Both the position numbers and the translations under genes were made by a program. Of a DNA stretch of 26,412 nucleotides, positions 3,793 to 25,076 are shown piece after piece (within the stretch, counting starts at the first letter, position 1; the number at the start of each line of letters is the position of its first letter). The stretch lies in the IMG/VR virus record IMGVR_UViG_3300042090_000791, positions 1-26,412 of that record; one strand, written 5' to 3'. The notes beneath the pieces were generated by a model. It had not been told where the DNA came from. It saw only the letters and a list, made by a program, of their open reading frames with translations, and did no database searches. The DNA comes from a virus.

Positions 3793-4077
3793 ATGCCTAT
3801 CTCTTCCACTCAACCTGCGACGGTCACGGTGCGCGCACGCGCCGTTTCGCTTGTGCACCGGCTCGAGACGGTCCTCCGTCGAATAGCAAATCACAAGCAT
3901 GCCGTGCTCGCGACGCCGCAGGACGCAACACCGCCACCGACACCCCCGCCAGACAGGCAATTCGCCGGGGGACAGGGGGTGGCGCCCTTGCCGCCGATCG
4001 AGAGCAGCCTTGAGAATGCGCATGATCTTCTCACGTCGGTCGAAGATCATCTGTCTACTCTGGAGGATGATGTTTAA
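3793..4077 (+). CDS. Hypothetical helical protein with Pro-rich linker, 94 aa
   Basis: The N-terminal part (about 1-40) is basic and helix-prone (VRARAVSLVHRLETVLRRIA). A proline-rich linker follows (TPPPTPPPDR, about 47-56), then an acidic helix at the C-terminus (SLENAHDLLTSVEDHLSTLE) with heptad-like spacing. Helix-linker-helix architecture suggests an oligomerising or adaptor protein. No family was recognised. GGAG lies 8 bases before the ATG. Its stop codon overlaps the start of the next gene (TAATG), indicating coupling to the Acb2-like gene. Confidence 0.6.
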   Translation: MPISSTQPATVTVRARAVSLVHRLETVLRRIANHKHAVLATPQDATPPPTPPPDRQFAGGQGVAPLPPIESSLENAHDLLTSVEDHLSTLEDDV

Positions 4078-4301
4078 TGGCACTCCACCGCTCGACTTTC
4101 GACCTTCTGCTTCCGAACGAACAGCAGTTGAAGGACATGGTCATGGCGCGGAAGTGTGCGCGCGCCTACGCGGACGCCGTTGAAGCGTTGGTCCCGGACG
4201 GGCCGGATCAGACCTACATCCTGCGTCGCATCCGCGAGACGGCGATGTGGGTGAACGTTGCCATCAGTCGCCATGCCGACGGGAGCCCGCGAACATCATG
4301 A
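4077..4301 (+). CDS. Acb2/Tad1-hairpin-like protein (candidate anti-CBASS), 74 aa
   Basis: The layout matches the Acb2/Tad1 hairpin family as I know it: a short N-terminal strand ending in TF plus a loop, a first helix (about residues 16-39, QLKDMVMARKCARAYADAVE), a VPDGPD turn, and a second helix with RRIRETAMWVNVAISRH. That last segment resembles the family hallmark (L.e.vMWaNaAIaR). Acb2 proteins are small phage sponges that bind cyclic nucleotides and block CBASS signalling. The position where characterised Acb2 has a ligand-stacking Tyr appears here as Phe 8 (alignment by eye). The ATG overlaps the previous stop (TAATG), and its own stop overlaps the next start (ATGA), so it is embedded in a coupled operon. 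Uncharacterised relatives of this hairpin are common in phages, so activity is not assured. Confidence 0.6.
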   Translation: MALHRSTFDLLLPNEQQLKDMVMARKCARAYADAVEALVPDGPDQTYILRRIRETAMWVNVAISRHADGSPRTS

Positions 4302-5206
4302 AGCGCATCAAAATCCTGATCTGCGGTCTGCCCGGATCCGGCAAGACCACGCTCGCCCGCGCTCTCCAAAAAGAACTTGGCGCAGTTTGGTTTGACGGGG
4401 ACGACGTGCGCGCGTGGAGCAACAACTTCGATTTCAGTCTGAAGGGGCGCGAGCAGCAGGCGTTCCTGATGGGCCAAATCTGCGATGCCGTCGTGCGCGG
4501 CGGCAAGTATGCCATCGCTTCGTTTATCTGTCCGACCGAGTCGACGCATCGCCGGTTTGCAAACGGCACGCCGCCGTACACTGTGTTCGTCGATCGGATC
4601 ATTGCCGGGTGCTACCAGGACACGAATGCCATGTGGCAGCCGCCCGCCCTGCCGAACTTTACCGTTCATCCAGTAGTGGGGTCGCCTGAGGCGTCGGCTG
4701 TGGTTGTTGCCCGGCAGATTGCCAAGCATATCACGACATCGTGGCAGGCGCGCCCCGAGTGGAATTCGCTCAGCCCGACTGCCTTGATGGTTGGACGGTT
4801 CCAGCCCTGGCATAAGGGACACCGGGCACTGTTTGAAGCCGCGCTGAAGAAATACGGGCAGGTGGCTATCGCGATCCGCTGCCTTGCGGTCAGCCCCGAG
4901 AACCCCTACACGACGGAACAAATCGAAGATGCCATCCGTGCAGACTTGCGGCCGCAGTACGAGCAACGGTTTTTAATTCTGCGGGTTCCAAATATTGCGT
5001 CTGTTGTGTACGGCCGGAACGTCGGCTACACCATCGAGCGGATCTTTCTTGACGAGGCCATTGAACAGATATCTGCTACGGATATCAGAAAGGCTCAGGG
5101 CGATGAAACATCTAGCTTCGATACTGCTGCTGGCCTCGTTGACCACGTGCAGTCCGGAACCGAGCTTCGCCGGCCCTCCCTCCCAGGAAAATCTCAACGG
5201 TTCTGA
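4298..5206 (+). CDS. Fusion: APS-kinase-like P-loop domain + NMNAT/cytidylyltransferase-like domain, 302 aa
   Basis: The N-terminal domain (about 1-150) has a Walker A GLPGSGKT at 10-17 followed by FDGDDVRAW and a GREQQ...ICDAVVRGG layout, resembling adenylylsulfate kinase. The C-terminal domain (about 160-265) has GRFQPWHKGH at 166-175 (HxGH nucleotidyltransferase motif) and ISATDIRK at 258-265 (ISxTxxR), as in archaeal-type NMN adenylyltransferases. The start at 4298 is chosen because ATGA overlaps the previous stop and GGGAG lies 12 bases upstream. Possible roles are NMN/NAD+ metabolism, or APS/PAPS formation for the phage sulfotransferase at 14441. The kinase-then-nucleotidyltransferase order is that of animal PAPS synthases, but the second domain is far shorter than ATP sulfurylase. 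The last 35 residues overlap the next gene in another frame. Confidence 0.75.
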   Translation: MKRIKILICGLPGSGKTTLARALQKELGAVWFDGDDVRAWSNNFDFSLKGREQQAFLMGQICDAVVRGGKYAIASFICPTESTHRRFANGTPPYTVFVDRIIAGCYQDTNAMWQPPALPNFTVHPVVGSPEASAVVVARQIAKHITTSWQARPEWNSLSPTALMVGRFQPWHKGHRALFEAALKKYGQVAIAIRCLAVSPENPYTTEQIEDAIRADLRPQYEQRFLILRVPNIASVVYGRNVGYTIERIFLDEAIEQISATDIRKAQGDETSSFDTAAGLVDHVQSGTELRRPSLPGKSQRF

Positions 5207-14440: not shown

Positions 14441-15253
14441 ATGTCGTATCACTTTATCAGCGGTCTACCGCGATCAGGCTCAACCTTGCTCGCCGCCCTC
14501 TTCTGTCAGAACCCCGCTTTCCATGCTGGTATCATTTCGCCGATGGGCCCAATGACGTCAGCGCTTCGTAGCGCTATGAGCCCGAAGCAAGAGACACATG
14601 TTTTCGTTGACGACGTGAAGCGTGGCCGCGTGCTCGAGGCCTTGTTTGATGCATTCTACGAAGACAATCTGCAGAAGGTGGTCTTTGATACGAACCGCCG
14701 TTGGTGTGCTGACATTGCAATGCTTGGCCGCCTGTTTCCGAAATCGCGCGTGATCGCGTGCGTGCGTCAGCCCGCGCACGTTGTTGATAGTTTCGAGCGT
14801 CTTTTTCAGAAGCATCCGTACGCTGTGAGCACGATCACTAAATGCAAGACGGAGGGGACTGTCTACGATCGCGCGGCGACGTTGCTCGCTATAGACGGTG
14901 TCGTTGGGTACGCGTACAACGCGCTGCGGGAAGCATTCTACGGTGCTAATTCGCACCGTCTGATCATTCTTGAGTATGTCAATTTGGCAAAGGCGCCGAA
15001 GGAAACGATGGCGTGGTTGCACGAGTGCTTGGGTGAAGCGCCTTTCGATTACGACTTCGATCATATCAAACAAATTCCTGAGGTCGAGTTGTTTGATCGC
15101 ACGATTGGCACGCCGGGTCTGCACGCAGTTAAGGAAAAAGTTGTCTACACCGTTGAGAATATTGTCTTGCCGCCTGATATCGTGGCGCGTATGCCGCCGG
15201 TGTTTTGGCGGCCGCCACCTTCCGTTAAGAAAGACGAAACCAATTCTGGATAG
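14441..15253 (+). CDS. Sulfotransferase family protein, 270 aa
   Basis: The PAPS-binding 5'-phosphosulfate loop is clear at residues 8-17 (GLPRSGSTLL). The 3'-phosphate region is VIACVRQPAHVVDSF (104-118) with Arg 109 and Ser 117, and FDTNRRW (82-88) sits where a substrate-side loop is expected. Such enzymes move a sulfuryl group from PAPS to a hydroxyl on a sugar, protein tyrosine or other acceptor. The ATG follows the portal stop with no gap (TAAATG), so it is co-translated with the portal. Its neighbours are collagen-like genes and glycan enzymes, so a glycan or fibre acceptor is likely. Confidence 0.8.
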   Translation: MSYHFISGLPRSGSTLLAALFCQNPAFHAGIISPMGPMTSALRSAMSPKQETHVFVDDVKRGRVLEALFDAFYEDNLQKVVFDTNRRWCADIAMLGRLFPKSRVIACVRQPAHVVDSFERLFQKHPYAVSTITKCKTEGTVYDRAATLLAIDGVVGYAYNALREAFYGANSHRLIILEYVNLAKAPKETMAWLHECLGEAPFDYDFDHIKQIPEVELFDRTIGTPGLHAVKEKVVYTVENIVLPPDIVARMPPVFWRPPPSVKKDETNSG

Positions 15254-15279: not shown

Positions 15280-15900
15280 ATGACTGCCGGCATTACCTCT
15301 GCCCGACAATACGATCGTAATCAGCGTGGTGTCATCCTCGCAGAGGTTGTCAATGCTCTTGCGAGCGGTCCTACCGGAACAAATACTGGACCGACAGGTC
15401 CGACGGGGCCAGTTACAGGTCCGACTGGCGCTGCCGGTGTTCCAGGTCCGACCGGTCCGACCGGTCCGTTTGGTTTAGGTACGGGTGGTTTCGGGCCACT
15501 TGGGTACCAGGGCCCCACTGGTCCGCGCGGTGCTACAGGCTTCACTGGTTTCACTGGAAATAGCGGGCCGCTGGGCGCACAAGGACCAACTGGTCTTGCG
15601 AACGGCGCGACTGGCCCGACTGGCCCGACTGGTCCTTCTGCTGGGCCGGCCGGCTATACCGGTTGGACAGGTCCGACAGGTCCGACAGGATACACTGGAC
15701 CGACGGGTCCGACAGGTGGATATGGGCTTGTTGGTCCCACCGGGCCGACCGGGCCGACCGGAACCACGATTACGATTTTCATTCCGCCTACATCGACCCC
15801 TGGCATCACGGGCGCGGTGTGGTTCAATCAGAATGCGACCGGCTTGACCGGTGGCCAGCAATGGTTGGCGCTTGTAGTGTCGAAGGGACCGGGGACTTAA
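15280..15900 (+). CDS. Collagen-like protein A (Gly-Pro-Thr repeats), 206 aa
   Basis: AAGGA lies six bases before the ATG. Residues 1-29 form a helical N-cap ([16 protein letters not shown]). About 30-165 is an interrupted collagen domain of Gly-X-Y triplets, most often Gly-Pro-Thr, with a few Gly-Phe-Thr and Gly-Tyr-Thr. The C-terminal 40 residues make a non-collagen cap with [17 protein letters not shown]. Thr in the Y place substitutes for hydroxyproline in bacterial and viral collagens, and in Bacillus BclA it is the O-glycosylation site. A trimeric virion fibre or appendage is the most likely role. First of three tandem paralogues. Confidence 0.85.
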
Positions 15901-15901
15901 T

Positions 15902-16510
15902 ATGGCCAGAGAATATGGTAACGATGGCCCTATCCCGGCCATCCTGAACATCGATGCGAACCAGATCAGCCCTGTTCTTCAACAGGTTGTTGATGCATTG
16001 AACCAGGGCGTTACCGGCTATACAGGCCCCACTGGCCCGACTGGCGTTGGCAATTTGACGGGCCCTACCGGCCCGACCGGCACGTTGACCGGTTTCACTG
16101 GTCCAACAGGCGGCCAGCCGGGCCCGATCGGTCCTACTGGCCAGACGGGGATCACCGGCCTTAGTGGCGCGATGGGCTTGCAGGGTGCGCCGGGCCAAAC
16201 CGGCCCAGGTGGTCCGACTGGCCCGATCGGTTTGGCGCCGTTAACGGGGATCACCGGCTCAACAGGTCCGACCGGCCCGCAGGGGAAAAATACTGGCCCG
16301 ACCGGTTCGACCGGTGTGACAGGTCTTACCGGGCTCACCGGTGTTTATGGCGCGACGGGGCCTTATGGTCCGACCGGTGCCACGGGTCCGACCGGTCCGA
16401 CCGGTGTGAACTTTCGCAATTTTTTCCCGCCGACTGCGAGCCCCGGGGTGACCGGTCAAGTTTGGAGTAATGCGGGCGTGCTACAAGTTTCGCTTGGACC
16501 TGGGACGTAA
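15902..16510 (+). CDS. Collagen-like protein B (Gly-Pro-Thr repeats), 202 aa
   Basis: Follows protein A with one base between stop and ATG. The N-cap (about 1-36) contains [19 protein letters not shown]; the collagen domain is about 37-168 with many GPTGPTG blocks; the C-cap has [17 protein letters not shown] and ends VSLGPGT. Caps A and B are clearly related while the repeat registers differ, which points to gene duplication with free drift of repeat number. It is probably secreted into the virion rather than the host envelope, as no signal peptide is present. Confidence 0.85.
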
Positions 16511-16513
16511 TCG

Positions 16514-17437
16514 ATGGCCACGAACATTGAGAACCCGTTGCTGAGCCCGCCGGACACGTACGATGACAACCAGATCCCGGTTGTGTTGTTCGAAGTTGTC
16601 GGCGTGATCAACAACAATCAGGCAACCGGCCCTGCCGGTCCCGCGGGCCCGAAAGGTCCGGGCATTGCTGGAACTGGGTCGAGCGGTCCGACCGGTCTGA
16701 CAGGCGGCCAGTTTGTGCAATGGGTGACTGGCATCACCGGGACGACCGGCTTTACGGCATCCAATGGGTATTTCGGTCCGACAGGACCGTGGGGCGGTTA
16801 CACCGGCCCGACCGGTAACACTGGCTACACTGGCATCCAGGGCACCGGGGGCGCGACTGGTCCAACGGGACCATCCGGTATTACCGGTAACACCGGGCCG
16901 ACTGGCACTGCGGGACCATCCACTTTCCCGGGCCCGACCGGTCCAAGCTTTGGCGTCGGCACCGGTTTGACAGGTGTCACCGGGTCAGCCGGTCCTGCTG
17001 GAGCACAAGGCCCCGGTGGTCCGTCAGTCAGCGGTACGGGCAGTCCGTATTTCCAAGGTGTCCTGCCGAGCGGTGCAACCGGTGGTGTAACAGGCCCGAC
17101 TGGTCCGACTGGTCCGACCGGCACCCTGCAGTACAATTTCTACGCAATCGGTGCTGGTACCGGTGTGACGGGTCCGTATGGCGGCTATACCGGTTCTGCC
17201 GGTGGCGCACCTGGGTTCGGCTACCCGAGCGGCTATCAAGGTCAGACGGGTCAATCTGGCTACGCGCTGACAGCCTACACTCAGGTGGGTGGTCCGATTG
17301 GTCCGATCGGTCCGGTGCATAATACGATCTTCACACCGCCGACGGTGGATCCGCAGATCCCGGGCGCCGTGTGGTGGAACCCGCTCTACGGTAACACGGG
17401 CCTCTTCGTATCGCCCGGCTTCGTGAATGCGGGCTAA
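16514..17437 (+). CDS. Collagen-like protein C (Gly-X-Thr repeats), 307 aa
   Basis: Starts three bases after the stop of B. The N-cap has [18 protein letters not shown]; the collagen domain is longer and more interrupted (about 36-270), including [19 protein letters not shown] and Tyr/Gly-rich stretches ([20 protein letters not shown]). The C-cap has [17 protein letters not shown] and ends VSPGFVNAG. It shares both caps with A and B. The breaks in the triplet pattern may provide kinks or sites for other contacts in a fibre. Confidence 0.85.
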
Positions 17438-17501: not shown

Positions 17502-19496
17502 ATGCGCCTCTGCCTGAATTCCATCGTAAAAAATGAAAGCGCGCGCATCCTTCGGATGCTTGAAAGTGTCGCCCCCCATATTTCTTGCTACGTGATCGCC
17601 GATACCGGGAGCACCGACGGCACTCCGGATATGATTAAAAAGTTTTTCGAAGCCGCGCATATCCCTGGGGAGCTTGTTCACTGCAAGTTTGAGGACTTCT
17701 CCCAGGCGCGCAATGTCGCTTTGTTTGCTGCGCAGAAGAGCAATCTTGCGTGGGACTATGCGATGCTCTGTGACGCAGATATGGAGTTTAAGGTCTACGA
17801 CGAGAAGTGGATTGAGTTTCTAAAAGACGCGCCGGCGTACGACATGTATCAGGTCGCTGGCACGCTGCATTACCAGAACCGGCGTTTTGTGAAGCGCGGG
17901 GAGCACAACGGGTACCGCGGTGTGACGCATGAATATCTGGACGTCGCCACCGGCGGCTGCGTGCCGCAAGAGAAGGCGTTCTTCCTTGACTATGCGGACG
18001 GCGCCAACCGGCCTGACAAATTCAAACGTGATATCAGGCTGCTTAAGAAGGGTCTTGAGGACGAGCCCACAAACGAGCGCTACATGTACTACCTTGCCCA
18101 ATCGTATCGCGATGCCGGGAAGGCGGATAAGGCGGTTAAATGGTATCAGCGGCGCATCGCCGCCGGCGGTTGGGACGAGGAAGTTTGGAGCGCGATGTAC
18201 TGTCTCGCGCATGCGCTTAAAGACCTGGGCGATGAAGCTGGATTTATACGTAAGATGCTGGACGCGTATAATTATCGGCCGAGCCGGGCCGAGCCGCTTT
18301 ATGATCTTGCGCACTGGTACCGCGAACGCGGCGAGAACGCTACGGGCTTATTGTTCGCTGAAACCGGTATTCAGATCCCGACGTCGAAAGACGCTCTGTT
18401 TGTCAACGATTTTGTCTACACCGCGGGGTGTCTGGAAGAGTACGCCATCATGGCGTTCTATGTTCCTCACAAGCGCACGGCGGGCTACAAAGTCAACAAC
18501 ATGCTCAGTTTGAAGCGGATGGCCTATACGGGTTCTCGGGAGCTCGCGCGCGTAAACATGTATCACTATTTCGTGCCGCTGAAAGACCTTTGCAAATCGT
18601 TCACTTGGAAGCCGCTCGCCTTCATCCCGCCGAAAGACTACGTGGCGATGAACCCGTCGATCGCGGCTAATCCGACCACCGGTCAGTTGCACGTTGTCGT
18701 GCGGAACGTGAATTATCGCATCGACGACCAGGGGCGATATTTAATCCGTGCCACCGATGGAACGAGCAACGGGACAAACCCGATCCATACGCGCAACTTT
18801 TTGGCTATATTGGACGAGAATTTAGAGATTGTTCCGGATAGCATTAGTGAAATTAGACCGCCGGTTGACTTGCCGAAGCCGTTGTTTGATCTGGTTATCG
18901 GTTTTGAAGATTGCCGGTTATACACGGTTGACGGTGCTTTTTGGGTGTCGGCAACCATGCGCGAGCTCACTCCGGAAGGTTACTGTGAAATTGTGCGCGC
19001 GCGGATAAATCATTTGCCGCCTGTGCAGGTCTTCGACGAAATGACCCGGATGAAGCGCCGCGGTCACGAGAAGAATTGGATGCCGGTCGCCGACGGTCAG
19101 CACCATTTCATGTATCGCTGTGACGAACTTGTGGATGGTACCGGTGAGAGCCTTATCAAGCACGACGCTGTTATTGACGTCGGTGCTCTTGCTGGCGGGT
19201 CGCAGCTGATCCCGATGGCTGATGGTTGGCTTGCCGTTGTGCACGAGGCAACGCTTATCCCTGGTCAACAGACGCGGTTCTATTCGCACCGGTTCGTTGC
19301 CTTTGATAAGAGTTTCGTACTCAAGAAGGTCACGGCGCCATTCTATCTGCACGAGAAGGGGATCGAGTATGTCTCAGGGCTCGCTCTTTCTAGTGACAAG
19401 ACAAAGCTGATCCTGTCTTACGGCTTTAAAGATTGTGAGGCGCGCATTGCGACGGTGGACGTGAAAGAGTTGGAGACGTTCCTGTGGGCAAGCTGA
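17502..19496 (+). CDS. Glycosyltransferase (GT2) + helical repeats + GH130-like propeller fusion, 664 aa
   Basis: Residues 1-165 are a GT2 domain: LNSIVKNESARILRMLES, IADTGSTDGT (32-41), DFSQARNVAL (65-74) and the metal-binding DAD at 91-93. Residues about 175-350 are TPR-like helices (YYLAQSYRDAGKADKAVKWY, LYDLAHWYRERGENA). Residues about 380-664 look like a five-bladed propeller of the GH130 type: NPSIAANPTTGQLHVVVRN, FEDCRLY (468-474), GHEKNW (521-526), a conserved HEAT and a final GLALSSDKTKLILSYG. It probably transfers a sugar from an NDP-sugar, with the propeller binding or trimming glycan. It directly follows the collagen genes, so collagen threonines are candidate acceptors. Confidence 0.75.
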   Translation: MRLCLNSIVKNESARILRMLESVAPHISCYVIADTGSTDGTPDMIKKFFEAAHIPGELVHCKFEDFSQARNVALFAAQKSNLAWDYAMLCDADMEFKVYDEKWIEFLKDAPAYDMYQVAGTLHYQNRRFVKRGEHNGYRGVTHEYLDVATGGCVPQEKAFFLDYADGANRPDKFKRDIRLLKKGLEDEPTNERYMYYLAQSYRDAGKADKAVKWYQRRIAAGGWDEEVWSAMYCLAHALKDLGDEAGFIRKMLDAYNYRPSRAEPLYDLAHWYRERGENATGLLFAETGIQIPTSKDALFVNDFVYTAGCLEEYAIMAFYVPHKRTAGYKVNNMLSLKRMAYTGSRELARVNMYHYFVPLKDLCKSFTWKPLAFIPPKDYVAMNPSIAANPTTGQLHVVVRNVNYRIDDQGRYLIRATDGTSNGTNPIHTRNFLAILDENLEIVPDSISEIRPPVDLPKPLFDLVIGFEDCRLYTVDGAFWVSATMRELTPEGYCEIVRARINHLPPVQVFDEMTRMKRRGHEKNWMPVADGQHHFMYRCDELVDGTGESLIKHDAVIDVGALAGGSQLIPMADGWLAVVHEATLIPGQQTRFYSHRFVAFDKSFVLKKVTAPFYLHEKGIEYVSGLALSSDKTKLILSYGFKDCEARIATVDVKELETFLWAS

Positions 19497-20161
19497 CAAC
19501 GAAAGTCGTCACCGGTTACGTGCGTCTCGAGAACCACACGCGCAAGCCGGAAGAGTATAAAGCGCTGGGGGAACGGCTGAGTGACGCGCTTGGTGATCAT
19601 CCGCTGGAGGTCTTCTTCCATCGCAACCTTCGCGACCTCTGGCTGACGCAGTGGATTGAGCGCTTGCCCCCTATGAAGCCCCCGCTAAGCTGGAGCCAGG
19701 GCGATAACCCGCTGAAGAACACTCTCGAGTATCACTGTGTGCAGCACCAGAAGATTGCGTGGTTGGCGAAGGCTGCCGATATGGATAGCTCGATTGACAC
19801 GTTTATTTGGATGGATTATGGCATTTTCTCCCAGCCCGGGGTAAACGCAGAAGTCATCCGGGATTTCTTGTCTAGGATCCGAAAGAACGACTTCGCGTTT
19901 CCCGGGTGCTGGCCAGAGGATCCTGACGTCTGGGATGATTATCCGTGTTGGCGCTTTTGTGGTTCGCTGTTGATAGTGCCGCAGAAGGAAATGCGTCGGC
20001 TGGTAGAGTGTTTTTTGGCGTTGACCCGGCTCTACATTCGCACGATGGGGAAGGTGACGTGGGAAGTGAACACGCTCGCGCGAGTCGAGCCGTTTCTGAA
20101 AAAGACCAATTTTCGCTGGTATGAGGCTGACCACAATGCCACTCAGTTTACGAGGTACTGA
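19484..20161 (+). CDS. HtrL/YibB-like (WlaTC) putative glycosyltransferase, 225 aa
   Basis: The N-terminus (TTKVVTGYVRLENHTRKPEE, then PLEVFFHRNLRD) and the FIWMDYGIF motif (107-115), preceded by a lysine-containing helix (HQKIAWLAKAAD), resemble the HtrL/YibB family, where WxDxGI is conserved. Family members sit in polysaccharide clusters and are thought to be glycosyltransferases. The start is GTG 19484, inside the end of the preceding gene, with GGAG eight bases upstream. The C-terminal half (WEVNTLARVEPFLKKTNFRW) fits the same fold. Moderate confidence. Confidence 0.5.
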   Translation: MGKLTTKVVTGYVRLENHTRKPEEYKALGERLSDALGDHPLEVFFHRNLRDLWLTQWIERLPPMKPPLSWSQGDNPLKNTLEYHCVQHQKIAWLAKAADMDSSIDTFIWMDYGIFSQPGVNAEVIRDFLSRIRKNDFAFPGCWPEDPDVWDDYPCWRFCGSLLIVPQKEMRRLVECFLALTRLYIRTMGKVTWEVNTLARVEPFLKKTNFRWYEADHNATQFTRY

Positions 20162-20163
20162 GA

Positions 20164-21180
20164 ATGTCCAAGAGGATCTTGATCACCGGTGTCGGCGGTT
20201 CAATTGGTTGCCATGTCTTGCGGCATGTTCTGAAGCACACGGATTGGCATGTTATCGGCTTAGACAGCTTCCGGCACAAAGGGCTGACGGATCGCGTGCA
20301 GCGCGTAACCTACAAGCACCGAGAGACTTTGTCCCGATTGACAGTGTATACCCACGACCTCACCGCCCCTATCTCGTCGTTGTTGGAAAGAAAGATCGGG
20401 AAGATTGACTACATCATCAATCTGGCGTCTATCTCGGACGTCGACCGCTCAATCGATGAACCGGGCTACGTGATCACGAATAACGTGGAGCTCATGGTCA
20501 ATGTTTTGGATTACGCGAGACGCGTACGACCAACTACTTTCCTCCAAGTTTCGACTGACGAAGTCTATGGGCCAACTGACGGCCGTACGGCGCACAAAGA
20601 GTGGGATCCGATCGTCCCGTCGAACGCCTACTCGGCATCGAAAGCCTGCCAGGAAGCCATCGCGATCGCGTACTGGCGCAGCTACGGCGTGCCGCTGATC
20701 ATCGTTAATCTGATGAACAATTTCGGTGAAATGCAGTCGCCGTCGAAGTTCCCCGCGATGGTGCAGCGGAGGGTGCGAGCAAACGAGAGTATCGGTATCC
20801 ATAGGTTTGAAGATGGCTACGGTTCCCGCTTCTACATTCATTCCCGTAACGCCGCGGACGCTATGTGGTTTTTGCTTCGCCAGTGTCGACCACATTTACA
20901 TAAACCAGGGACTGTTGATCGACCTAGTCGATATAACATTGTTGGGGACGAGCAGATCAATAACCTCACGATGGCATACACAATTGCCGCTGCCGTCGGT
21001 AAAGACCTGAAATGGTATGACGTTGACTGCGCTGAGAACCGGCCGGGTCATGACGCGCACTACGGGCTTGACGGTACGAAACTTAAAGAAGCTGGCTGGA
21101 CGTCGCCATGCACGTTTGAACAATCGATGAAAGAGACGGTGACGTGGTACGAGAGGAACCCCGAGTGGCTGGACCTATAA
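20164..21180 (+). CDS. NDP-sugar 4,6-dehydratase (RmlB-like, extended SDR), 338 aa
   Basis: The NAD(P)-binding Rossmann motif GVGGSIG is at 9-15. STDEVYG (130-136) holds the Thr-Asp-Glu triad that marks 4,6-dehydratases rather than 4-epimerases, and YSASK (156-160) has the SDR catalytic Tyr and Lys. GHDAHYGLDGTKLKEAGW near the end matches the RmlB-type substrate loop. It should convert an NDP-hexose (probably glucose) to the 4-keto-6-deoxy form, the entry to deoxysugars. No downstream epimerase or reductase is in the window; a C-methyltransferase at 23832 can act on such keto sugars. ATG lies two bases after the previous stop. Confidence 0.85.
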   Translation: MSKRILITGVGGSIGCHVLRHVLKHTDWHVIGLDSFRHKGLTDRVQRVTYKHRETLSRLTVYTHDLTAPISSLLERKIGKIDYIINLASISDVDRSIDEPGYVITNNVELMVNVLDYARRVRPTTFLQVSTDEVYGPTDGRTAHKEWDPIVPSNAYSASKACQEAIAIAYWRSYGVPLIIVNLMNNFGEMQSPSKFPAMVQRRVRANESIGIHRFEDGYGSRFYIHSRNAADAMWFLLRQCRPHLHKPGTVDRPSRYNIVGDEQINNLTMAYTIAAAVGKDLKWYDVDCAENRPGHDAHYGLDGTKLKEAGWTSPCTFEQSMKETVTWYERNPEWLDL

Positions 21181-21791
21181 TCTTTGTCCTCACGTATCCG
21201 CCGGACTTGGAGAATGGCCGCATTAATGCGGTTCGCGCTACGTGGTTAGACACATGGTGCGATATGATTGCTTACCGGTTTGCGTTTGATAACACGCACG
21301 TTGCCACGCGGGGGGATGAACTTGTGCTTGACGCGCCGACTGGTTTGTTGAACACTTCATTCAAGACACAGAGGGCTGCGCAATGGGCTCTCAAGCAAGG
21401 ATACGACCATGCATTCTTCGTCCCGACCGACTGCTACGTCGCGGTCCCCCTCTTACTTGCGTCCGGGTATGGGGATCACGACTATACGGGCTTCCACTCT
21501 TACGATGAACATCATATCGGTGGGGGTTCAGGTTACTGGCTCAGCCGAAGCGCTCTTCAAGTTGTTGCAACTTATGTACCCTACCCCGATTACGAAGACC
21601 GATGGGTTGGAAGCGCCTGCCGAGACGCCGGTATCCCCGCGGTTCACGACGCCCGATACCACTCGTGGGACCACGCTAAGCCCAGCCGCCCTCCAGTCAC
21701 TAAACACCTTTCTCGAGACACTGGGATTTACGACCCCATGTGGATGATGTTCGTCCACGAAACATTCCTGGCAACTGGTGATTTGACATGA
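21165..21791 (+). CDS. GT31/fringe-like glycosyltransferase, 208 aa
   Basis: The start chosen is GTG 21165, with AGAGGA seven bases ahead, overlapping the dehydratase end by 16 bases. The protein resembles GT31 galactosyl/fringe-type transferases: NAVRATWLDTW (21-31), AAQWALKQGYDHAFFVPTDC (71-90) where the DxD site would be, GGGSGYWLSRSA (119-130) and DYEDRWVGSACRDAGI (142-157), the late acidic block. The usual DDD is replaced by Thr-Asp-Cys, so metal binding may differ. It probably adds a hexose to a growing glycan. Confidence 0.6.
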   Translation: MAGPIIFVLTYPPDLENGRINAVRATWLDTWCDMIAYRFAFDNTHVATRGDELVLDAPTGLLNTSFKTQRAAQWALKQGYDHAFFVPTDCYVAVPLLLASGYGDHDYTGFHSYDEHHIGGGSGYWLSRSALQVVATYVPYPDYEDRWVGSACRDAGIPAVHDARYHSWDHAKPSRPPVTKHLSRDTGIYDPMWMMFVHETFLATGDLT

Positions 21792-22357
21792 CCCCACTTT
21801 GCGAGCTCTCCAGAAAGTACGGAACGGACAAGGGCGGCGAGCACATTCCCTACGGCGATCCCAATCACTGCTGTCACAACTATACGCCGATATACTACGA
21901 CCTCTTCAAGGCTCGACGCGACGATACCCTAACTCTTCTCGAGATTGGCGTGAGCGAAGGTAAGAGTATTCACATGTGGCGAGAGTTCTTCCCTCTCGCC
22001 GCGATCTATGGTTGGGATCTTCGCATCGATCGGTTTGAGGGTGCGCCGCCTCCCAGCGTCCATCTGCGCTGTGTTGACCAGAGCAACGCGGACAGTTTGT
22101 ACGAGGCGCTGATGGAAATTGGTAATCCGCGCTTCGACATTATCATCGATGACGGTTCGCATATCTACGAGCATCAAGTGACAGCCCTTGGCGTCCTTCT
22201 GCCGTTCTTGAAACCGGACGGCATTTACGTCGTTGAGGATCACACGGAGCCGCAGCGCATGATCCCCGACAGTATCTTGCCGACCGGCTGGACTAACACT
22301 GTCCACACTGACACAGACTGGCGTAATGTTTTGCAGGTTATCCGCCGTGCAAGCTGA
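21788..22357 (+). CDS. SAM-dependent methyltransferase (Methyltransf_24/MycE-like), 189 aa
   Basis: ATGA overlap joins it to the previous gene. The N-terminal YGTDKG and YTPIYYDLF, the SAM-binding LEIGVSEGKS (51-60), AAIYGWDLRID (71-81), IIDDGSHIYEHQ (119-130) and LKPDGIYVVED (141-151) are the run of motifs found in sugar O-methyltransferases of macrolide and cell-surface clusters. Metal-binding acidic residues (DDGSH) are present. At 189 residues it is a little shorter than many relatives. Probably methylates a hydroxyl of the phage-made glycan. Confidence 0.8.
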   Translation: MTPLCELSRKYGTDKGGEHIPYGDPNHCCHNYTPIYYDLFKARRDDTLTLLEIGVSEGKSIHMWREFFPLAAIYGWDLRIDRFEGAPPPSVHLRCVDQSNADSLYEALMEIGNPRFDIIIDDGSHIYEHQVTALGVLLPFLKPDGIYVVEDHTEPQRMIPDSILPTGWTNTVHTDTDWRNVLQVIRRAS

Positions 22358-23096
22358 TATCATTTCGATCAGTCACCCGCGCCCCACGCGTACGATCGAT
22401 CCGCCGCTCGGCGGCGTTGCGCGCGAGTTTATGAACGGGTTGGACGATGATGGCGGGCTATCGCAACGGTGGATCGATATGGTGCCGTTGGACTACATTT
22501 GGCGTCATATGAATGATCCCCTGCCGGACTGGCCGGTGCCGCCGATTATCGGTTTTCACGGCTACCGGAAGCACATTAATTTCCGCGATCCGATGGCAGA
22601 GCACGGGCATCAGCTGGCGCGCGGCTGGGACGCTGTCAGTCTGACGCAGTTCCTATCGTACCAGGAGTGGCTGGCCAACGATTTGACGGGCACCATGCTT
22701 GATAAGATGCTGGACGGCTACGACGTGTTGACGGTTGAGCCGTTTGATTGCTCCTACAATCAGAACATGCGCGAAGACTTTATTCGGTCGCGCTCGTTTA
22801 ACGACTGGCAGACATTTGAGTATGCCATGAGACTGAAGGGCGAGTTTAACTTTGAGACGCCGTTCATCCGCCCGATGCACTTTGTCTGCCGGCGTCCTGT
22901 GTTCTGCCGCTGGATGCGGTTCTTCAACGAAATGAAAGTCCTGGAATTTGTTATCGACTCCGAAGATGCCGTCGCGCTGGATTATCCGCGCCGCGCCCTG
23001 GGGTACCTTGCCGAGCGTATGTGGTCGCTCTGGTTGGACGCATCTGGCCTGAAAATAAAGACCCTCCCTCTCATGATCTGTTGGAACGTACCATGA
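22347..23096 (+). CDS. DUF4422 glycosyltransferase-like protein, 249 aa
   Basis: PIIGFHGYRKHINF (66-79) occupies the place of the family's GxxHYRR motif. LDGYDVLTVEPF (122-133) follows, then RPMHFVCRRPVF and the end motif RALGYLAERMWSLWL (216-230), close to the DUF4422 hallmark. This family is found in capsule and O-antigen loci. Start uncertain: GTG 22347 (AGG about 9 bases ahead) or ATG 22326 (no ribosome site). Either overlaps the methyltransferase gene. Confidence 0.65.
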   Translation: MQADIISISHPRPTRTIDPPLGGVAREFMNGLDDDGGLSQRWIDMVPLDYIWRHMNDPLPDWPVPPIIGFHGYRKHINFRDPMAEHGHQLARGWDAVSLTQFLSYQEWLANDLTGTMLDKMLDGYDVLTVEPFDCSYNQNMREDFIRSRSFNDWQTFEYAMRLKGEFNFETPFIRPMHFVCRRPVFCRWMRFFNEMKVLEFVIDSEDAVALDYPRRALGYLAERMWSLWLDASGLKIKTLPLMICWNVP

Positions 23097-23845
23097 TTAA
23101 CGGCTTAGCTGTTTCCACGGGTATGATGCATTTCACTCACGGGTCGCCGTTTGACCATGCAGTGATTGACGGCTTTTTGCGGCCTGATGTCCTGCTACGG
23201 ATCCAGGAGGAATGGCCACAAGACGACGACCCGCGCTGGATCACGTACCACAACGCCCTGGAAGACAAGAAGACGTGCAACAAGTGGGACGCGTTCGGGC
23301 CCTTCACCTATCAGTTCTTTTCGAAGATGTGCAGCCTGGACGTGACGCGATATTTCAGCGCATGCGTCGGCGTTGACCTTGTGCCCGACTACGGACTGCA
23401 CGGTGGTGGCCTTCACCAGCATGGTGAAGGCGGCAAGAACGGCGCGCACCTGGACTACAGCATCCACCCGAAGATGGGGCTGCAGCGGAAGTTGAACATC
23501 ATCCTCTATATCGCTAAGCCGGGTTTAGGAGGGCATTTTGGCTTGTGGGCCGATCCGGACAAGCTAGTCAAGGAAGTCGAGCCGCGGGTGAACCGCGCCG
23601 TCGTCTTCGACACGACGCAAAACTCCTGGCACGGGTTGAGCCGGACCGTTCACACGAATGGAATGAATTATCGAAAGTCGCTTGCCATGTACTACCTGTG
23701 CGAGCCGCCACCGGATGCCCCGCAGAACCGGCGTGTGCTGTTCGGTTTGACGCAAGAGCAGAAGAACGACGCGATGCTTCAGGAGTTTGTGGCGAAGCGC
23801 TGCGGTGTGGATACAGCGAAGGAGGTCTATCGTGATCGATTATAA
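23093..23845 (+). CDS. 2-oxoglutarate/Fe(II)-dependent oxygenase, 250 aa
   Basis: The iron-binding triad is visible: HLD at 119-121 (GAHLDYSIHPK), His 180 in NSWHGLSRTV, with Arg 194 (NYRKSLAMYYL) for 2-oxoglutarate. KLNIILYIAKPGLGGHFGLW supplies the core strands, as in the prolyl-4-hydroxylase-like 2OG-FeII_Oxy_3 group. Such enzymes hydroxylate proline, other protein side chains, or sugars. ATGA overlap links it to the DUF4422 gene. A substrate in the collagen-like proteins is attractive, but members of this family also occur in plain glycan clusters, so the target is open. Confidence 0.8.
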   Translation: MINGLAVSTGMMHFTHGSPFDHAVIDGFLRPDVLLRIQEEWPQDDDPRWITYHNALEDKKTCNKWDAFGPFTYQFFSKMCSLDVTRYFSACVGVDLVPDYGLHGGGLHQHGEGGKNGAHLDYSIHPKMGLQRKLNIILYIAKPGLGGHFGLWADPDKLVKEVEPRVNRAVVFDTTQNSWHGLSRTVHTNGMNYRKSLAMYYLCEPPPDAPQNRRVLFGLTQEQKNDAMLQEFVAKRCGVDTAKEVYRDRL

Positions 23846-25076
23846 GTGTCGCGGTTGCGGTTGTTCTCTGGTTCATGTCTTTGCAAACTTGGGTCGATCC
23901 CCCCCATCAAATGCATTTCGCACGCTGGAGCAGCTGGACGAACCAGAAATGACGCTCCCGTTGCGCGTCTTCGTGTGCAGGGAGTGCCAGCTTGTGCAGC
24001 TGCCGGCGTACGAGAAGCCGGAAAACATCTTCAATGAGTACGCTTATTTCTCCTCCTACTCGCCGACCTGGGTTGAGCATATGCGGCGTTATGCTGCGGC
24101 GATGACAGCGAAGCACCGGCTCGGTGCTCAGTCGCTCGTGCTCGACGTTGCAAGCAATGATGGTTATCTCCTGAAGCACTTCAAGGAGTTCGGTGTTCCA
24201 GTGATGGGGGTTGATCCCGCGAAGAATGTTGCTGACATCGCTATCGCGGCCGGTATTCCGACCTTTAAGGCCTTCTTTGGTGAGGCGCTGGCGAGGGACA
24301 TGGTGGTTGGTCACGGTCGTGCTGACCTAATCAATGCAACCAACGTCCTGGCGCACGTTCCCGATATTCACGATTTTGTCGAGGGCTTTAGGATCATGTT
24401 GCAGCCTGCCGGCACCATCACCTTTGAATTCCCCCATGTGCTCAACCTTATACGCGAGTGTCAGCTAGACACTATTTATCACGAACACTACTCGTATTTA
24501 TCGTTGCGAGCACTGGAACCGATTTTCAAGACACACGATTTGCGCGTGTACGATATTGATCAGTTACCAACGCACGGCGGTTCGCTTCGGTTGCATGTCT
24601 GTCACGCGTACGATTACCATGCAGCAATCGTTGCGAACGATGAAGCCATTTATAATATTCAAGCTTTGGAAGTTGGTGCCGGGCTGCATGAGATAGAGAC
24701 ATATACGAGCTTCGCTAGCGAGCCGCAGCGCGTCAAAGTGGACTTCCTTGATTTTTTGATCAGACAGAAAAAGCGCGGTAAGATGATTGTCGGGTATGGT
24801 GCGCCGGCGAAGGCAACGACGCTACTCAATTACTGCGGCGTCGGGCCAGAGCTCATTTCATACACGGTGGACGCAACACCGGCGAAACAATGGAAATACA
24901 TTCCGGGTGTTCAAATTCCCATTTTTCCGGAAGAAGAGTTGGTCAAAGATCGGCCTGACTTCGTGGTGATTTTCCCCTGGAACTTGAAAGACCCGATCAT
25001 GCAAAAGGCTAAGGTGATCCGGGAGTGGGGCGGTAAGTTCGTCACCGCGATCCCTAAGCTGCAGATCATCCCTTAA
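23832..25076 (+). CDS. Sugar C-methyltransferase (TylCIII/NovU-type), 414 aa
   Basis: Three parts: an N-terminal zinc site (Cys 6, 9, 49, 52); a SAM domain with LVLDVASNDGYLL (102-114) and NVLAHVPDIHDFV; and a C-terminal domain with GKMIVGYGAPAKATTLLNY. The YHEHYSY motif (216-222) is the catalytic block of 4-keto-sugar C-3 methyltransferases. It should C-methylate an NDP-4-keto-6-deoxyhexose, exactly the product expected from the 20164 gene. Start is GTG 23832 with AAGGAGG six bases upstream, overlapping the oxygenase gene by 14 bases. Full length for the family. Confidence 0.85.
   Translation: MIDYKCRGCGCSLVHVFANLGRSPPSNAFRTLEQLDEPEMTLPLRVFVCRECQLVQLPAYEKPENIFNEYAYFSSYSPTWVEHMRRYAAAMTAKHRLGAQSLVLDVASNDGYLLKHFKEFGVPVMGVDPAKNVADIAIAAGIPTFKAFFGEALARDMVVGHGRADLINATNVLAHVPDIHDFVEGFRIMLQPAGTITFEFPHVLNLIRECQLDTIYHEHYSYLSLRALEPIFKTHDLRVYDIDQLPTHGGSLRLHVCHAYDYHAAIVANDEAIYNIQALEVGAGLHEIETYTSFASEPQRVKVDFLDFLIRQKKRGKMIVGYGAPAKATTLLNYCGVGPELISYTVDATPAKQWKYIPGVQIPIFPEEELVKDRPDFVVIFPWNLKDPIMQKAKVIREWGGKFVTAIPKLQIIP

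Follow-up and report, generated by a model that had tools for sequence, protein, structure and literature searches.

A phage gene joining an APS-kinase-like domain to a compact nucleotidyltransferase encodes a putative self-contained PAPS synthase

Introduction

The gene at 4298-5206 (+ strand) of the viral sequence studied here raises the question of whether a small two-domain protein supplies PAPS for sulfation or rebuilds NAD+ in response to NAD-depleting defences. The sequence (hereafter "the window", i.e., the whole stretch of 26,412 nucleotides that was analysed, positions 1 to 26,412 of IMG/VR virus record IMGVR_UViG_3300042090_000791) had been described in a sequence-only reading, which put forward both answers for this fusion of a P-loop kinase with an HxGH nucleotidyltransferase (NT) and leaned towards counter-defence. 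That reading also compared the domain order with animal PAPS synthases, a comparison that holds, as the human enzyme consists of an APS kinase followed by an ATP sulfurylase whose activity depends on an HNGH motif (PMC11697783).

Phage genomes have been reported to carry sulfotransferases, with an unclear role (PMC10580990), and viral cysC has been described in the literature as an auxiliary gene. In the literature searched, coverage of which was incomplete, we found no description of the NT domain as an ATP sulfurylase. Here, profile searches, predicted structures and the gene neighbourhoods of relatives are used to weigh PAPS supply, NAD+ repair and other possible roles of this protein.

Results

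The gene starts with an ATG at 4298 and its stop codon ends at 5206, encoding a protein of 302 aa; the frame is real and the motifs of both domains are present, as the sequence-only reading had described. A single phage family, phrog_10255, spans residues 5-268 (E 4e-44), so the two-domain frame is not due to chance; this full-length match is named "kinase" only, however, and gives neither a second-domain function nor a pathway. AlphaFold2 prediction with 82 relatives yielded two well folded domains and a disordered tail (pLDDT 88.4, pTM 0.66). The C-terminal tail (5102-5203, + strand), which is poorly conserved, shows low pLDDT after residue 270, has no counterpart in relatives, and is also read, in another frame, by the next open reading frame (ATG at 5097). 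Four bases (ATGA) at the start of the gene are shared with the upstream gene, 4077-4301.

With regard to the N-terminal domain (residues 1-153; 4298-4756, + strand), both profile and fold comparisons point to APS kinases and not to a NadR-type kinase. Pfam APS_kinase (PF01583) matches residues 5-105 with 38.6 bits, above the gathering threshold of 21.1, whereas the score against the apsK equivalog TIGR00455 (33.8 bits) is below the cut-off of 138.7. In VIA-align comparisons, APS kinases ranked first (Z up to 19.4, for residues 1-153 against Arabidopsis APS kinase with APS bound), ahead of gluconate kinase (16.2) and adenylate kinase (about 13). The P-loop GLPGSGKT (residues 10-17; 4325-4348, + strand) includes G10, L11, G15 and K16, which are invariant in alignment A5, as are D35 and R38 of the acceptor-site DxxR motif (residues 35-38; 4400-4411, + strand); this motif matches DGDxxR of APS kinase in an alignment with canonical APS kinases. 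In that alignment, D35, R38, F46, R51 and P79 correspond to the canonical DxxR, F, GR and the P of ISP, and phage kinases retaining these residues grade into canonical APS kinases. The domain thus resembles CysC (PF01583, TIGR00455) in its fold, P-loop and acceptor-site D..R, F and R, and differs from it in its low equivalog score and in its lid; phage forms are without the lid segment, the canonical FTGID lid being shortened to YQDTNAMWQPP in the window kinase.

The C-terminal NT domain (residues 158-268; 4769-5101, + strand) was delimited by alignments A2, A6 and A7 and by AlphaFold2, which gave a pLDDT of 91.8 and a pTM of 0.83 when this domain was modelled alone. Pfam CTP_transf_like matches residues 163-194 (24.4 bits vs a gathering threshold of 21.0). 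The domain carries, all on the + strand, the signature GRFQPWHKGH (residues 166-175; 4793-4822), in which G, R, Q, P, H, G and H are invariant in A5, the phosphate-binding signature ISATDIR (ISxTxxR; residues 258-264; 5069-5089), and the family signature YGR(D/N)VGY (residues 238-244; 5009-5029). The window reads YGRNVGY; D occupies that position in 192 of the 203 sequences that contain a YGRxVGY motif, and G, K or T in others.

The sequence-only reading likened this second domain to an NMN adenylyltransferase, which is right on ancestry, since NadM is nearest to the NT profile among solved structures (46 bits; 1EJ2, 2QJO), but not on likely function. The NT shares GRFQPxHxGH, ISxTxxR and the NP(F/Y) segment with NadM-type enzymes, but misses the NadM cut-offs by far (TIGR01527, 24.5 vs 181.2 bits; NF002243, 28.3 vs 127 bits), and a match to the NadR profile is confined to the NT part (18.3 vs 341 bits). 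It also differs from NadM in having the YGRDVGY signature and in the segment between VPNI (third strand) and VYxG, which is missing in every aligned NT member and which in NadM carries the nicotinamide-stacking Trp. No Sat chain matched the NT profile at E<=1, canonical Sat (PF01747) was not among the best 25 Pfam families listed for the window protein, and glycerol-3-phosphate cytidylyltransferase chains matched weakly (E 0.16 and 0.87). Structural comparison, which the sequence-only reading had suggested as a check, was informative for the kinase but not for the NT: phosphopantetheine adenylyltransferase (PPAT; Z 11.6) and NadM (Z 11.2) are tied and, with others, indistinguishable, and the absence of Sat chains from the listed NT fold matches excludes nothing.

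Relatives matching the whole protein or only a part of it were drawn from six named phage records, 51 viral contigs and 80 cellular loci, as well as from further viral contigs (80 listed of 594 confirmed matches). Among the matches listed, NT-bearing relatives from viruses and bacteria form at least 143 non-redundant groups; in 107 of the 143 (56 viral and 51 cellular) both domains lie in one fused protein, with either order represented, and in 22 they are adjacent separate genes, while the remaining 14 are cut by the edge of the locus or have no kinase-like neighbour. Together, the fused and adjacent forms argue that both domains serve one pathway. The NT occurs in phages, Alphaproteobacteria including SAR11, Patescibacteria and archaea.

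In marine viruses with separate kinase and NT genes, the two share 106 or 112 bases in different frames (e.g., L015 6330-6435, L025 6330-6435, L041 6357-6468, and other marine viral loci); the shared stretch is 34 bases long in another set and 8 bases long in L012. The length of the overlap is constant across diverse marine viruses, with GRFQPWHKGH and the C-terminal helix of the other gene encoded by the same DNA. Programmed -1 frameshifting between the two genes was considered as an explanation, but a conserved two-gene overlap accounts for the data equally well. Among the matches listed, a small DUF2061 membrane protein (PF09834) neighbours the pair in 26 of the 143 groups (e.g., L002 6761-6976 and L005 6758-6973), and perhaps acts in the same pathway; nothing helpful on such a role turned up in the literature searched. 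A different fusion partner is found in L208 (8784-9491), where the NT continues in frame into a region that by eye resembles a MazG-type pyrophosphatase.

NT relatives are also joined to canonical APS kinases. In two OCS116 genomes (L141 and L145), the NT is fused ahead of a complete APS kinase that has an FTGID lid (TIGR00455, 243 and 247 bits, respectively, vs the cut-off of 138.7), and in a Woesearchaeota genome (L214) it likewise precedes a canonical APS kinase (218 bits). The order is reversed in L204, with the APS kinase before the NT (164 bits), and in L205 the NT and a canonical APS kinase (144 bits) are separate, adjacent genes. The NT domains of these five loci have the phage-type GRxQPxHxGH, YGRDVGY and ISxTxxR motifs with small departures.

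The earlier statement that this phage has a sulfotransferase is borne out: the product of 14441-15253 (+ strand), a likely PAPS consumer, matches Sulfotransfer_3 (E 8e-13), and the PAPS-site motifs GLPRSGST and R..S are visible in its sequence. It belongs to a subfamily (STa) that is found directly beside the kinase-NT pair in other viruses and in bacteria, and is one of three sulfotransferase subfamilies that recur there. Its distance from the kinase-NT gene in the window, 9 kb, counts against a PAPS synthase. It is followed by three collagen-like (GPTGPTG) proteins (15280-17437) and by a cluster at 17502-25076 encoding a glycosyltransferase, an epimerase, methyltransferases (with a C-methyltransferase among the glycan genes) and a 2OG-Fe(II) oxygenase. 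These neighbours could possibly represent a modified surface fibre or glycan, and their position beside the sulfotransferase suggests a sulfated surface structure as the product.

Across the family, a sulfotransferase is located within 4 kb in 43 of 142 groups among the matches listed (21 of 75 viral and 22 of 67 cellular groups), a count that took in an added TPR-linked subfamily; the roughly 70% of loci with no sulfotransferase within 4 kb also count against a role in PAPS synthesis. Sulfotransferase density is 1.72 per 10 kb at 0-0.5 kb and declines with distance, reaching 0.05 at 6-10 kb. As a control, we used 109 viral contigs with other GxFQPFHxGH proteins; this motif-based set was preferred, as one phage NadM-Nudix protein used as a query gave only two loci. 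Only 1 of the 109 control contigs had a sulfotransferase within 4 kb (Fisher p = 1.5e-8 for viral groups and about 2e-11 for all groups vs control). Control flanks were somewhat shorter, but the difference holds per unit of length, at about 0.5 sulfotransferases per 10 kb within 4 kb for the family vs 0.02 for the control. Some arrangements are intimate: the kinase, the NT and a sulfotransferase form one uninterrupted block in L197, a sulfotransferase overlaps by four bases in L093, L106, L110, L202 and L060, and a single 555-codon open frame in Rhizobium sp. BK376 (L160, 8729-10396) contains a sulfotransferase-like region, the kinase and the NT. At the genome level, Sulfotransfer_3 was found in 23 of 35 NT-bearing genomes, compared to 2 of 14 named control genomes.

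APS kinase requires APS. Among 35 cellular genomes with the NT, only 2 gave a match to Sat (PF01747) and 10 a match to CysD above cut-off (13 with any match counted), while neither was found in 21, including both OCS116 genomes, all seven Pelagibacteraceae, the Woesearchaeota genome L214, L204 and L205. Because most carrier genomes are incomplete, many of them single-cell or metagenome assemblies, this absence is weak evidence for each genome alone and is a trend, not proof.

Discussion

Judged from sequence, the product of this gene is very probably a self-contained two-step PAPS synthase, i.e., a putative compact NadM-derived ATP sulfurylase joined to an APS kinase for sulfation. A PAPS synthase is supported because NT relatives are fused or adjacent to canonical APS kinases, because sulfotransferases form operons with the pair and are enriched nearby, and because many carrier genomes have no detected ATP sulfurylase; on the same grounds, the PAPS-supply side of the original question has gained. 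In the first step, the C-terminal NT, with its HxGH and ISxTxxR motifs, would move AMP from ATP to sulfate, yielding APS and pyrophosphate, and would represent a compact ATP sulfurylase that either arose from NadM-type adenylyltransferases or is their sister. In the second step, to which homology speaks more closely, the APS-kinase-like domain would phosphorylate the 3'-OH of APS (APS + ATP -> PAPS + ADP). The resulting PAPS may then feed the phage sulfotransferase, whose possible target is a surface glycan, of the phage or of the host, or the adjoining collagen-like proteins. Points on the other side are that the NT resembles NadM in sequence, with no match to an ATP sulfurylase chain, that the kinase has a short lid and a low apsK score, and that the window carries YGRNVGY.

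Compared to animal PAPS synthases (PAPSS1/2), the window protein is alike in the proposed overall reaction, the kinase fold and the single chain with an APS kinase before an HxGH domain, but has 302 aa vs about 620, the short lid, and an NT of about 112 aa that is not recognisably related to PF01747 by sequence. Sat is likewise an HxGH adenylyltransferase with the reaction proposed here, but the NT has no sequence match to it; CysDN would share the reaction, but CysD is an unrelated PP-loop enzyme and the NT has no GTPase partner.

NAD+ repair, in which the kinase would phosphorylate nicotinamide riboside and the NT adenylylate NMN, as in a NadR of reversed order that counters NAD-depleting defence, is unlikely, and we would give it only a small chance. 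The NadM affinity of the NT and its NPF/Y segment speak for it, as do two neighbours. A NADAR gene adjoins the kinase-NT gene in four related Casjensviridae phages, the only such cases among the family loci (L052 15056-15499; L054, L055 and L056 7556-7999), which counts against PAPS synthesis; this gene overlaps the kinase-NT start by eight bases. In the window, an Acb2-like gene overlaps the start, and this was the basis of the earlier lean towards counter-defence. The four-base coupling itself stands, but the Acb2/Tad1-like hairpin protein has a sub-threshold Pfam match (E 0.079) and a better one to phrog_1454 (function unknown; 2e-5), and no other family locus has a homologue of 4077-4301. 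Counter-defence through this coupling was rejected, as the linkage does not recur across family loci, and so were Nampt or NAD genes as partners, none being found by homology in those loci. Nampt homologues, expected for a NARP1-type or a NadM with Nampt reconstitution, number 0 in all family loci vs 7 of 109 control contigs, and no Nudix partner was found in family loci either; in Rhizobium phage B1VFA, a NadM-Nudix gene adjoins Nampt. The lean towards counter-defence is thus not supported, and fusion to canonical APS kinases, the APS kinase fold, the missing NadM segment, the NadM scores and the sulfotransferase operons also argue against NAD+ repair.

A CoA-type enzyme, with the NT as PPAT and the kinase as dephospho-CoA kinase as in animal CoA synthase, would follow the same reaction logic of an adenylyltransferase followed by a 3'-OH kinase and fits the tied PPAT fold, but the kinase matches APS kinases, not CoaE, and sulfotransferases are enriched nearby instead of CoA genes, of which none were noticed; we regard it as extremely improbable. 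Hardly more credible is synthesis of a nucleotide-activated alcohol or sugar for a surface glycan by a TagD-like cytidylyl- or adenylyltransferase and a small-molecule kinase; the compact TagD-like size and the glycan genes of the window would suit it, but the cytidylyltransferase matches are weak, and the canonical APS kinase fusions and the sulfotransferase link would be left unexplained. Finally, the family may be a PAPS synthase while the NT of the window itself is decayed or altered, so that only the kinase works, on host APS. The N at a nearly invariant D and the shortened lid are consistent with decay, but the frame is intact, all remaining signature residues are kept, and other intact members have G, K or T at the same position; we regard this as unlikely.

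For the family as a whole, it is likely that the NT represents a putative third, separately evolved ATP sulfurylase of about 112 aa, NadM-derived and distinct in sequence from Sat and CysDN, which in phages, Alphaproteobacteria including SAR11, Patescibacteria and archaea would provide a dedicated PAPS supply for sulfation in organisms and viruses with no detected sulfate-activation pathway. If its activity is confirmed, the NT would extend the known ATP sulfurylases by one of very small size that is of use in PAPS regeneration, and would show an NMNAT-like fold turned to an inorganic acceptor. A phage-carried PAPS synthase, if true, would give viral sulfation a PAPS supply of its own, and some of the viral "cysC" genes that are now counted as assimilatory sulfur genes may be accounted for in this way.
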